Positions 1 through 31,620 of a stretch of DNA of 64,000 nucleotides are shown piece by piece. The stretch is from Pedosphaera parvula Ellin514 (GTDB lineage Bacteria > Verrucomicrobiota > Verrucomicrobiia > Limisphaerales > Pedosphaeraceae). Below the pieces are notes generated by a model. That model was given only the letters and a program-made list of their open reading frames with translations, made no database searches and was not told the DNA's origin. The stretch lies in assembly GCF_000172555.1 (NCBI RefSeq), contig NZ_ABOX02000014.1, positions 1 to 64,000 on the forward strand. The letters run 5' to 3'. The stretch's first letter is position 1; each line of letters begins with the position of its first letter. A program made the position numbers and the translations under genes.

Positions 1-117
1 TGCATGGGATTTGATTTGATGTCCTGCTTGTTTCGGTGGTCAGCGTAGCAAAGGGGTGGAGAGAGGCAGTAATTTTTTTTGCTGTGAAGGGGGGAATGAT
101 TGCGGTGGGGGAGCTGC

Positions 118-235
118 TGGCCGCGTCCGCGGATGGGCTCGATGGGCTGGATAAAGTCACCGACGGGGTTTGAATTCGGGGTCTTTCCAGACGGGCACCA
201 GCCTCATTCCACCTTTAATTGATTGCTGGCGCGTG
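118..235 (+). repeat. REP-like dispersed repeat, copy A
   Basis: Shares its blocks in order with copies near 1070-1220 and 1795-1931: a CGCGTCCGCG block, GCTCGATGGG, GTCACCGACGGGGTTTGAAT, GCCTCATTCCACC, and the core TTGATTGCTGGCGCG (GCTGGCGC at 225-232). It carries a small insertion after GAATTCGGG compared with the other copies. It lies just downstream of the stop of the leftward gene at 282-947. Confidence 0.75.
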
Positions 236-281
236 GGAATGAGTCATCGGTCGCGGAGGCATTCAGTGGCGGTGAGTGGAG

Positions 282-947
282 TCACCGACTGGAGGATTGT
301 CCGAGTTTTTGGATTTCCTTGTCTTTGGGGAAAATTTGTTTGGCGAGGGTGATGATTTGGTTTTCGATGGGGAAGAGTTTGGCGCCGCCAACGGGTTGGT
401 TGTTCACGATGGTTTGGACTTCGGTGCAGTGGAGGCAGATGAGGAGGGTGATGTCTTTTTTGTCGTGGGTATATTTTAAGGCGATGCCGGGGGAGAACTC
501 ACATTGCGTCATAACACGACTAAAGCTTTTGGGGTTGGTCCAGATGGTAGTGAGTTGTTGGATGGTATTGGTGGAGAGTTTGACGGGGCCGCTCAGGATC
601 TCGTAGCCTGCGATTTCGGTTTTTGGGTCGACGAGGGTGTGTAATTTTTTCTCCTCTTGCCGAGTGAGGCGTTGGCCCAATTCCTTGCGCGCTTTCAGTC
701 TCTCTCTTGCGTAAATGGATTGTGGGTCGATACGGTAGGCGACGACGGAGGTGGGGTGTCGGATGGTTTGGAGGTTTTCCTGGCTGCCGAAGACCTTTAC
801 GGGATCGACAGGAGGCCAGGTGGGTGTGGTTGCTGTTGGTGGTGACGGGTTGGTTTGTGCATCGGCGGTGATAGGGAGAATTGCGAACAGAGATAGGATT
901 AGTGTGATGATCTGGAGTTTTAGATGGGCGGCGAAATTGTGGTGCAT
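282..947 (-). CDS. hypothetical secreted protein
   Basis: I do not recognise this protein. The chosen ATG at 947 begins MHHNFAAHLKLQ followed by a hydrophobic stretch ending in ITADAQ, a good Sec signal peptide. The open frame runs about 67 codons further upstream to 1148, but that part lies in repeat sequence and is proline/arginine-rich, so I excluded it. The mature part of about 195 residues is hydrophilic, with a charged segment (RERLKARKELGQRLTRQEEKK), a central ICLHC pair of cysteines and a basic C-terminus. The stop at 282-284 lies close to REP copy A and copy B lies upstream, so the gene is bracketed by repeats. Function unknown; probably periplasmic or secreted. Confidence 0.6.
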   Translation of the reverse strand: MHHNFAAHLKLQIITLILSLFAILPITADAQTNPSPPTATTPTWPPVDPVKVFGSQENLQTIRHPTSVVAYRIDPQSIYARERLKARKELGQRLTRQEEKKLHTLVDPKTEIAGYEILSGPVKLSTNTIQQLTTIWTNPKSFSRVMTQCEFSPGIALKYTHDKKDITLLICLHCTEVQTIVNNQPVGGAKLFPIENQIITLAKQIFPKDKEIQKLGQSSSR

Positions 948-1069
948 GGGATTTTGTGTCCTGCTTGTTTCGGTGGTGAGTTTAGCGGGGGCGAGGGAAG
1001 GATACAATTGTTTTGGCCATGCGGGTATCCTGAAGGATGAACAAGGTGCGGGTGGTGGTGGGGATTGGA

Positions 1070-1220
1070 TCACCGGCCGCGTCCGCGGACCAGCTCGATG
1101 GGTTTTGGCAGGGTCACCGACGAGGTTTGAATTCGGGCGAAGCCTCATTCCACCTGTTAATTGATTGCTGGCGCGCGGTATGAAGGGCCCATGTCGCGTA
1201 CGCGTAGAACTACGCGACTG
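1070..1220 (+). repeat. REP-like dispersed repeat, copy B
   Basis: Same block order as copy A, with the core TTGATTGCTGGCGCG (GCTGGCGC at 1167-1174). It is followed by GTCGCGTA and its exact reverse complement TACGCGAC around 1192-1216, which can form a hairpin. The copy sits directly downstream of the RAYT gene and upstream of the gene at 282-947. Confidence 0.75.
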
Positions 1221-1252
1221 TACGGATGGTTCGGTGGGTTTAAGAAATTTGG

Positions 1253-1729
1253 TTAGTGCCAGCGGAGGTGGTTGAGGGTTCCTTGGTAGGGCCAGTCTTT
1301 GGAGTCCTGGACGAGGCCGGCGTGGACGGGGTTTTGTCGGACGTAATCGAGTTTCTCGAGGTAACTCTCCTGGGTTCGCAAGCGATGGTGGAAGGGTTTG
1401 GATTGCCAGCGGATTTTTGAATACTTGTGGCGCAGACTGAACTGGCCTTTCCAGTAGGTGACCCAGTCGTCAAATTTGATGGAAGTGTCGTGAGGGCAAG
1501 CAAAGATGTGGATGTGATCGGGCATGATGAGGTAACTGCCGATGAGCCAAGCGGGGGAATCCTGCCAGACTTGCAGGAGAAGGGAATGGACGAGGTCGTT
1601 GGCAAGCAATTTGGCACGGTCTTCGGTGCAAAGGTTTAGGAATACGATGGTGGGTCCATGGGATTGGATGTGGACTCCACGGGCAGGGTAAGGTGCTTTT
1701 CCTGATTGTTGGGGTGGATCACCGGGCAC
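1253..1729 (-). CDS. REP-associated tyrosine transposase (RAYT, IS200-like Y1 family)
   Basis: The 158-residue protein matches the single-domain Y1/HUH transposases that mobilise REP sequences. MPDHIHIF at 69-76 supplies the HxH metal-binding pair (His72, His74), and YVRQNP at 129-134 supplies the likely nucleophile Tyr129 in the YxxxNP context typical of RAYTs. Length fits the family. The start is a GTG at 1729, and no upstream ATG is available. The gene is flanked on both sides by REP-like repeats (1070-1220 and 1795-1931), as expected of a REP/RAYT unit. RAYTs are usually single-copy and host-like rather than autonomous insertion sequences. An ordinary IS200 is less likely because no paired-end structure of that type was seen. 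Activity is not provable from sequence, but the catalytic residues are intact. Confidence 0.88.
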   Translation of the reverse strand: MPGDPPQQSGKAPYPARGVHIQSHGPTIVFLNLCTEDRAKLLANDLVHSLLLQVWQDSPAWLIGSYLIMPDHIHIFACPHDTSIKFDDWVTYWKGQFSLRHKYSKIRWQSKPFHHRLRTQESYLEKLDYVRQNPVHAGLVQDSKDWPYQGTLNHLRWH

Positions 1730-1794
1730 GGGGAAAGGTTTCTCGGAAATGAATCAAGGAGTCGAGGAGGAAATTAGGAGAATCGTGAATGGAG

Positions 1795-1931
1795 GTTTTG
1801 AGGTCGTGAGTCGCGTCCGCGTGTCGGCTCGATGGGGTGAATGGAGTCGCCGACGGGGTTAGAATTCGGGCGAAGCCTCATTCCACCATTAAATTGATTG
1901 CTGGCGCGCCTGATTGGGTCGCGTACGCTAA
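1795..1931 (+). repeat. REP-like dispersed repeat, copy C
   Basis: Same blocks as copies A and B: GCGTCCGCG, GCTCGATGGGG, GTCGCCGACGGGGTT, GAATTCGGGCGAAGCCTC and the core TTGATTGCTGGCGCG (GCTGGCGC at 1900-1907), ending in GGTCGCGTACGC. It lies upstream of the RAYT gene and abuts the stop codon (1933-1935) of the next leftward gene. Confidence 0.75.
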
Positions 1932-1932
1932 T

Positions 1933-3042
1933 CTAATAGTTGGGGTAGGCTTGCTTGGAAACGCTTTTGCCGGGGAGAGGTTCGTTGTTGTTGGTTTCGC
2001 TGTCTGGTGAATTATTCAAGACGGCAAGGGAGACGAGGTGGGGATTGGTCTGGATGACGCTGAGGGCAATGTTGAGGTTGGTGTTTTGCAGCGGGGCGGG
2101 GATGGTCGATGTGTTCCAACCGAATCCGGTGATGATGGTTTTCCTGGTGACGGCGGTGCCTTCGAAGCTGGTGGAGGCATCGTGCACCCAGTTGATGTAT
2201 TGGAGAAATTGGTTGGAACTGGTGGGGCCGCCCTGATCGATGTAGATTTGCTGGCCAACGGCGTCGAGCGGGTAGGTGCCCCAGCGTTTGCGGGTGTAGG
2301 AAAAGGAGCCGACGTGGTTGATGCCTGTGTTGTAGGTATCTTTCAGATACTGGGCGCCGGCGTTTTGGAAGCTGTAAATGCCGCCCGTGCTGTGTCCAGC
2401 AACGCCGCCGGAGATGATGGTGACAAATTGTTTGAGGCCTTTGTATTCAAGATTGGCGTAGCTGTTGGCGAGCAATTGACTGAAGCAGGAGGGATAGAGA
2501 TAGGTGCCACCGGTGTAAGTGCAGTCCTTATGAGTGGTCCAGTAGTTGGGCCGATTCCAGAGTTCGAACAGTTGGACGCGATCATGGAAATGCTTGACGA
2601 TGGGGACGACTGCCTGGCCGGCGTAGTTGTTGATGTAGTTGTTGAGGCCGTTGCCGTTCTGGCATTCGTAATTGTTGGTATTCCATTCCGATTGCGTGCC
2701 CAGCCATGAGGTGTTGTCGATGAGGCCGATGATTTGGAGCCCGGCGGCACGCGCATTGTTTACCACGGTGTCGTAATAACCGAGCATGGTATCATTCCAG
2801 GCAGTGTTGGTGCCGATGAGGCGGAATTCGATGCGCAGGTATCCGACTTTTTCACGGACAAGACTGGCGGCTTTGGCCGGGGTGAGGAGGGGATTGCCGG
2901 AATTGTCGATCACTCTGCCGGAATCAATACCCATGGTGCCGCCTGCATGGGTGTCGTTGGCGAGGCAAAAGAGCATCAGGCTGAGAGTGAGGATGCGGAT
3001 GAATGGGTGTCGGGAAGCAACAGGTGAGAAGTGTGTTTTCAT
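1933..3042 (-). CDS. secreted glycoside-hydrolase-like TIM-barrel protein lacking both catalytic glutamates
   Basis: The ATG at 3042 gives MKTHFSPVASRH plus a hydrophobic segment ending in THAGG, a Sec signal peptide; the frame also extends 24 codons upstream without one. The body looks like a clan GH-A barrel (GH5/GH39-like): strand motifs VGYLRIEFRL and GLQIIGLIDNTSW, then FELWNRPNYW and KTIITGFGWNTS. In active family members these last two read NEP (acid/base) and TEFGW (nucleophile). Here the first glutamate is Arg (CGG at 2553-2551) and the second is Gly (GGA at 2127-2125). The frame is otherwise intact, so this is probably a non-catalytic or mechanistically altered relative, perhaps carbohydrate-binding. 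Exact GH family is uncertain. Confidence 0.7.
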   Translation of the reverse strand: MKTHFSPVASRHPFIRILTLSLMLFCLANDTHAGGTMGIDSGRVIDNSGNPLLTPAKAASLVREKVGYLRIEFRLIGTNTAWNDTMLGYYDTVVNNARAAGLQIIGLIDNTSWLGTQSEWNTNNYECQNGNGLNNYINNYAGQAVVPIVKHFHDRVQLFELWNRPNYWTTHKDCTYTGGTYLYPSCFSQLLANSYANLEYKGLKQFVTIISGGVAGHSTGGIYSFQNAGAQYLKDTYNTGINHVGSFSYTRKRWGTYPLDAVGQQIYIDQGGPTSSNQFLQYINWVHDASTSFEGTAVTRKTIITGFGWNTSTIPAPLQNTNLNIALSVIQTNPHLVSLAVLNNSPDSETNNNEPLPGKSVSKQAYPNY

Positions 3043-3354
3043 GACAGGCTCAATTGCATGTTCTCGACTGTCCGGGGACGAGGTAGAGATGTCGAAAATC
3101 GCCGATTTTGTCAACGGAAAATCCCTATGCGCGAGTGCGAAAGAATTTTGAAGGCTTTCGATCTGGTTTGTGTAAGTGGTTGATGGGCAATGGAAGATAG
3201 TTTTGGATGCAAGGAGGGGGTGGACAGGCTATGTCCAACCCCCCTGCTAAGGTTGTGGGCATGACGATTGAGCTATTATCCAAATGGCGAGATCGGAAAA
3301 AGGAGGAGTGGCGGGGAGGAGGGCGGGTTATACACAACAATAATCGCCCCTCCC

Positions 3355-3461
3355 GTTTTTGTGGGCCTTTTGATCGCTGGCGTTGTTGCTCGTCAGTCGC
3401 AGCCCCATTAGGGGATGCTCCTTCCTCGCGCCTAGCCAGCAATCAAAATTCCCACAAAAAC
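3355..3461 (+). repeat. REPIN-like long inverted repeat
   Basis: Left arm GTTTTTGTGGG..TTTTGATCGCTGGC from 3355 pairs with right arm GCCAGCAATCAAAA..CCCACAAAAAC ending at 3461. A smaller palindrome CCCCATTAGGGG lies inside. Each arm contains the GATTGCTGGC-type core shared with REP copies A-C, so this looks like two REP cores in inverted orientation (a REPIN). Confidence 0.7.
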
Positions 3462-31334: not shown

Positions 31335-31436
31335 ACCTTCCTTTCTACACCCGAAAGCCCTCTCAACAAAATCGAAGAAACCTCAAAGCCTTGCGAGTTA
31401 GTTGCCCAATAGGAGACGTGCGCTTCGCGCAAAGCA

Positions 31437-31620
31437 ATCTCACTCCACCATTTAATTGATTGCTGGCGCAGGGGAATGGAGGCTTGGGTCGCGTACGCGA
31501 ATGGGGGCATAGGAGGGATCGATGTCGCGGGCCATGTTAGTGCGGCGCCCACGGGACTGGTTCGCCCTACCCACGATGCTGGCGCGGGGGAATGGAGTCT
31601 TGGGTTTAAAGCTGGCGCAA
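31437..31620 (+). repeat. REP-like cluster D with three cores
   Basis: CTCACTCCACCATTTAATTG and TTGATTGCTGGCGCA (core GCTGGCGC at 31462-31469), then GGTCGCGTACGCG, match the right half of copies A-C. Two further GCTGGCGC cores follow at 31578-31585 and 31611-31618, linked by repeated GGGGAATGGAG(G/T)CTTGGGT. The cluster lies 50 bp from the IS3 element. Confidence 0.7.

Follow-up and report, generated by a model that had tools for sequence, protein, structure and literature searches.

Pseudoglycosidases are an established kind of protein, with chitinase-like proteins, the klothos and CyRPA among their named members (PMC7828330). Those named in that source come from animals and one protozoan, and the bacterial example that it gives is a pseudoesterase domain, PgaB. 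Klotho is described as GH1-like (PMC7828330), and GH1 belongs to clan GH-A, with its acid/base and nucleophile at strands 4 and 7 (PMC4697909). In beetles, inactive GH28 proteins are reported to matter to the pectin-digesting pathway (PMC6549527). CmGH1, a member of GH39, is reported to be active with Gln157 and Tyr264 in place of the glutamates (PMC6933502).

Here we describe a gene found in a window of 64,000 nucleotides (the whole stretch of DNA analyzed) from Pedosphaera parvula Ellin514. Like alpha- and beta-klotho and other pseudoglycosidases, its product appears to be a glycosidase relative without catalysis, but whereas these have known ligands or partners, the window protein is a single bacterial copy with none known. 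It also resembles the beetle GH28 pseudoenzymes as an apparently inactive member beside active enzymes, though the beetle proteins belong to another glycosidase family, an animal host and a multigene setting, and are backed by experiments. Like CmGH1 it is without both expected glutamates; the nucleophile site, however, holds a tyrosine in the active CmGH1 and a glycine here. The GH39 and GH5 enzymes of clan GH-A (PslG, GH39wh2 5JVK, GH5_4 endoglucanases) have the same barrel fold and motif order, while the window protein matches no Pfam or NCBIfam family and one of its homologues reaches Cellulase (PF00150) below the curated cut-off. The closest comparison is with eight homologues from the same order (e.g. 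L009, L010 and a paralogue, L004), which have the barrel and the conserved positions in common with the window protein but carry both glutamates, H265, W342, F343 and an extension past the barrel, all of which it lacks.

The gene, its homologues and the catalytic motifs

The gene runs uninterrupted from an ATG start to a TAG stop and encodes 369 residues (Table 1), so the frame is intact as the original prediction had it. By eye, the N-terminus has a basic start followed by a hydrophobic stretch and a THA/GG cleavage-like site, and hydrophobic leaders are likewise seen at the N-termini of the homologues; from these sequence features, the protein is probably exported or secreted. A promoter scan returned nothing on the minus strand of the gene. 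At E limits of 10 for Pfam and PDB sequences and of 1 for NCBIfam, searches with the protein gave no match, and no curated Pfam or NCBIfam profile placed it in GH5, GH39 or GH79.

Table 1. Positions of the gene, its altered codons and the adjoining repeat in the window
Feature	Position	Strand	Basis or comparison
Gene of degenerate clan GH-A-like barrel protein	1933..3042	-	Open frame, eight homologues, model and structure search
Probable N-terminal export signal, residues 1-33	2944..3042	-	Reading by eye
Codon 43, R	2914..2916	-	W in 8/8 homologues; just after strand 1
Codon 164 (CGG), acid/base Glu to Arg	2551..2553	-	Two or more base changes away from every homologue
Codon 215, A	2398..2400	-	F in 8/8 homologues; strand 5
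Codon 265, Q	2248..2250	-	H in 8/8 homologues; strand 6, H-x-Y
Codon 306 (GGA), nucleophile Glu to Gly	2125..2127	-	
Diverged tail, residues 341-369	1936..2022	-	Alignment, region fits, model
Codons 342-343, L-N	2014..2019	-	W-F in 8/8 homologues; after strand 8
Dispersed repeat copy, about 100-120 bp, adjoining the stop codon	1812..1932		One of 43 genome matches

With the window gene, the set comprises nine genes in five genomes (two each in G000, G002, G812 (L007, L009) and G821 (L008, L010), and one, L015, in G847), the host genome contributing one of the eight homologues. Contig positions served to link G002, G812 and G821 to the named loci. Matches were found in 3 of 58 relatives, 3 of 8 genomes of the family and 5 of 320 genomes of the order; class-wide (384 genomes) and phylum-wide (387 genomes) searches matched the own genome only. 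These sets overlap, and the last two are samples of larger groups. The sole other genome of the window's genus gave no match. A four-row profile scan of genome contigs, bound to two short patterns, gave six loci and missed the G847 gene, and a contig scan with the single window protein gave nothing. Two matches were left out as weak: a protein of G005 (28% identity, E 4.8e-4) that passes the Cellulase and GH39 cut-offs, and a hit in the own genome, on contig C29, with E 5.3e-5. The two closest relatives, L009 and L010, form the sister group and are 61 and 60% identical to the window protein, and the full-length paralogue with both glutamates intact (L004) lies on contig C17 of the own genome. 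Those relatives of the protein that carry a name are from Verrucomicrobia MAGs, of which one is labelled subdivision 3. Among the publications listed in searches on pseudoenzymes, klotho, Verrucomicrobia and GH-A, none dealt with the window protein by title.

The homologue searches also brought up other loci. In G005, L003:712-2100 on the minus strand encodes a GH5/GH39-like protein with WNDPN for WNEPN at the likely acid/base motif. Very large, repeat-rich frames (L007:3-2819 and L008:1-2793) lie directly upstream of one homologue each in two MAGs, and by eye their sequences look autotransporter-like.

The original prediction reported NRP in place of NEP and TGFGW in place of TEFGW, and both readings were confirmed. 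The strand-4 motif is F-E-L-W-N-R-P-N-Y-W, with R164 in the acid/base place, and the strand-7 motif is I-I-T-G-F-G-W, with G306 in the nucleophile place. In a nine-row alignment, the eight other rows all carry N-E-P and T-E-[F/V]-G-W as well as H265, W342 and F343, and both substituted residues sit in ungapped columns that hold glutamate in every homologue. The protein is thus without the acid/base glutamate at the end of strand 4 and the nucleophile glutamate at the end of strand 7 that mark an active enzyme of clan GH-A. Relative to homologues judged active by their intact motifs, the catalytic residues have been lost, the sequence mark of a pseudoenzyme, and the protein is almost certainly catalytically dead. 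Misplacement of the catalytic acids by the alignment was considered and rejected: the window motifs align gap-free to the intact motifs of both sisters, and a profile of six intact-motif homologues aligns, weakly (E 0.031), to ELWNEPN and VTEIGW of 5JVK.

The losses extend past the two glutamates. The statement that the surrounding barrel motifs are intact held in part: 70 of the 85 positions invariant in the other eight rows are kept, but W43, F215, H265, W342 and F343 are among the 15 that changed (P36T, W43R, E164R, F215A, H265Q, Y293F, K300R, E306G, V314I, S315P, F327L, W342L, F343N, A350T and G354E). Four of these (W43R, E164R, F215A and F343N) cannot be reached from any homologue codon in fewer than two base changes. 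Counted in the same way, a method that flatters rows with a close sister in the set, the other rows show 1 to 4 losses among 71 to 74 positions, G002b excepted. This long-branch homologue has lost 24 of 94 invariant positions, no catalytic residue among them, so part of the 15 losses may be ordinary constrained evolution. A conserved non-catalytic subfamily, which the original prediction had raised, was rejected, since neither substitution is shared by any of the eight homologues found among genomes of the order, class and phylum, and the two closest keep both glutamates. On sequence grounds the window protein is a lone pseudoenzyme candidate, and no new family was seen.

Predicted fold and the diverged C-terminus

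An AlphaFold2 (AF2) model of the window protein, built from seven sequences, has a mean pLDDT of 65.6 and a pTM of 0.71, with pLDDT below 50 at residues 1-38, 165-180 and 344-369. It places eight strands in barrel order, with no helix after strand 8. In the PDB, the top Foldseek match is an endoglucanase of GH5_4, with E 8.3e-8 and a query-length TM of 0.55; PslG (4zn2, 5bx9) and enzymes of GH1 also appear among the 50 rows listed. With VIA-align, Z reached 20.6 in an alignment of 300 residues that are 11% identical. At this moderate model confidence, the predicted fold is a clan GH-A-type (beta/alpha)8 barrel. The loss of both catalytic residues within a barrel scaffold, as originally proposed, is supported by the alignment and by the predicted eight-strand barrel.

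The model puts R164 and G306 at the ends of strands 4 and 7. The positions W43, F215, H265 and W342-F343 map to strands 1, 5, 6 and 8, either within the strand or immediately past it. Strand ends account for 7 of the 15 losses under the wider definitions. The enrichment is borderline, with one-sided Fisher P of 0.21, 0.028, 0.049 and 0.17 under four definitions of a strand end; it falls below 0.05 in two of the four, so the outcome depends on how the ends are drawn.

The C-terminal part differs most from that of the homologues. The last 57 or so residues (313-369) are strongly diverged, and over residues 341-368 only 5 of 28 are identical to the nearest homologue, sister BO64b, while the sisters share 19 of 28 with each other. 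The homologues run past the barrel by more than 100 residues, for total lengths of 501 to over 1000 residues, and this extension is missing from the window copy. In the homologues it is LGFP-repeat-like below the cut-off (L005, E 0.016; profile versus PDB 6swz, E 0.0027), and L009 itself matched no Pfam family. From barrel topology, the window protein would end about where helix 8 is expected; topology is the guide for the homologues too, because AF2 modelled the sister L009 too poorly to show this helix (pLDDT 48.3), and that model was left unused. The stability of the protein is doubtful because pLDDT is under 50 over its final residues. A frameshifted extension was rejected, as both other downstream frames contain stops. 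A tblastn search with the C-terminal parts of four homologues against window positions 1-3200 gave a best match beyond the barrel end of E 0.74, and a search of the own genome with the L009 extension turned up nothing besides the C17 paralogue and, on C70, one weak hit (E 0.09).

Next to the stop codon lies one of several copies of a dispersed repeat, which in the window is found at 122-233, 1078-1176, 1812-1932 and 31424-31502. Its core is TTGATTGCTGGC, and the genome holds 43 matches, the query copy included. The right end of the repeat match in L024, like that at 31502, coincides with window position 1932. Of eight other places checked, L024 has the repeat 9 bp beyond the stop codon of a different open frame. 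The right arm of an inverted repeat at 3355-3461 (27-nt arms, 89% complementary, 53 nt apart) holds GCCAGCAATCAA, the complement of the core. Between two of the repeat copies, a small ORF at 1253-1729 on the minus strand has a sub-threshold Y1_Tnp match (E 0.041); we take it that this ORF may be a REP-associated tyrosine transposase that mobilizes the repeat.

Selection on the gene and alternative explanations

In the gene tree, the window copy groups with BO64b and D2b (support 100/100). Its end branch measures 0.54, whereas the path from that fork to either sister is 0.20, made up of a common 0.07 and a further 0.13, and there is no indel between it and either sister over residues 33-369. 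Codon models were written in Python for this analysis and run on a fixed tree with a trichotomy, where synonymous changes are probably near saturation on deep branches. A two-ratio model, in which the fitted window branch is implausibly long, did not separate this branch from the rest (2dlnL 0.94) and rejected omega = 1 on it (2dlnL 43.7), as also on three other branches tested; the relaxation exponent for the window branch was 0.92 (2dlnL 0.19). In a three-site-class model, ending the branch with a neutral phase of 0.02, 0.05 or 0.10 substitutions per site worsened 2lnL by 1.6, 6.5 and 18.3, so the shortest of these is compatible with the data. Over residues 33-312 taken together, the best neutral phase is zero; fitted separately, residues 201-312 gave 0.026 (2dlnL 0.58) and residues 313-369 gave 0.099 (2dlnL 1.16), neither a significant gain. 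The tail evolves about six times faster than residues 33-312 (fitted length 14.5 versus 2.2). In all, the codons of residues 33-312 in the window copy show the signature of purifying selection. This signature describes the whole branch, the time before and after the catalytic loss together. Four losses, E164R among them, lie two or more bases from the homologues, so the loss of catalysis is probably old and long precedes any recent neutral phase, the body of the protein meanwhile remaining under constraint.

The main competing explanation is that of a decaying gene, truncated against the dispersed repeat, with its active site lost and its sequence drifting, whose open frame reflects chance or recent death. 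The active-site losses, the missing C-terminal extension and the heavily diverged tail all fit such a history, and so does the repeat copy that abuts the stop codon. Moreover, genome searches across the family, order, class and phylum found no orthologue sharing the losses, which weighs against retention. Yet the repeat is common, and with the similar placement in L024 its position at the stop is no special evidence of disruption; we rejected it as such. A decaying gene would also have to account for a sequence without a stop and, over residues 33-369, without an indel, and for a codon model that assigns no neutral phase to residues 33-312. Neutral decay was also simulated from a sister sequence taken as ancestor, in a model of substitutions over the neutral part of the branch only. 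The full pattern was rare: whichever of six durations was used, no more than 0.8% of the 2000 runs combined a stop-free frame with 15 or more invariant losses and four or more multi-base ones. The original prediction had named, as an outcome that would count against it, homologues that retain both glutamates beside a copy that is simply decaying; all eight do retain them, which is half of that outcome, but the codon analyses disfavor decay. We regard decay as quite possible though short of probable, and a retained singleton pseudoenzyme as likelier than debris; a recently dead gene is possible.

The original prediction also allowed for a changed mechanism; on this reading, the chemistry would fall to some other residue. 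CmGH1, reported to be active (PMC6933502), is a precedent for it, and E72, D109, E160, R70, N163 and Y267 are all kept. It is nonetheless very unlikely here, because Gly306 offers no side chain for a nucleophile; at the other site the acid/base has become a base, Arg164, and further strand-end residues (H265, W342, F343 and W43) are gone as well. Nor are the retained acids new recruits, as E160 is present in all eight intact-motif homologues and E72 and D109 in seven of eight each. An assembly or base-calling error could be suspected of a sequence carried by one genome only, but it would have to produce 15 changes at otherwise invariant positions, several of them multi-base, with the frame kept, on a 153-kb contig of a genome that is 95.9% complete with 2.63% contamination. 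We consider such an error the least probable of these explanations.

A possible role outside the old pocket

On balance, we lean modestly toward a probably exported clan GH-A-like glycosidase whose catalytic function disappeared along this one lineage and which has since been retained in non-catalytic form. Enzymatic duties probably fall to the intact-motif paralogue of this genome, whose presence would have made the loss tolerable. The retained protein would be exported, would still fold largely as a barrel and would be unable to cleave glycosides. It may act by binding or scaffolding through conserved blocks outside the old pocket: all invariant positions are kept in blocks within residues 82-103, 126-134 and 178-185, which would more plausibly contact a glycan or partner. 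Use for binding, as the original prediction suggested, is possible on the sequence evidence, but binding in the old pocket is doubtful. Because W342, F343, W43, H265 and the -1 site glutamate are lost, the old pocket would make no simple substrate trap, and substrate trapping in the -1 site is not the mode that we propose.

Taken further, the protein could be a secreted bacterial GH-A pseudoglycosidase that arose in a single lineage, with much of the ring of active-site residues dismantled and the scaffold kept under selection, and that now works as a partner in binding or regulation, perhaps within the active paralogue's pathway; we advance this fuller reading tentatively, as a little short of evenly balanced. 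As a singleton with no known ligand, the protein is a modest finding. If the reading is true, a bacterial GH-A case with intact sisters and an intact paralogue in its genome would provide a clean pair with which to study why a glycosidase barrel is retained once dead.
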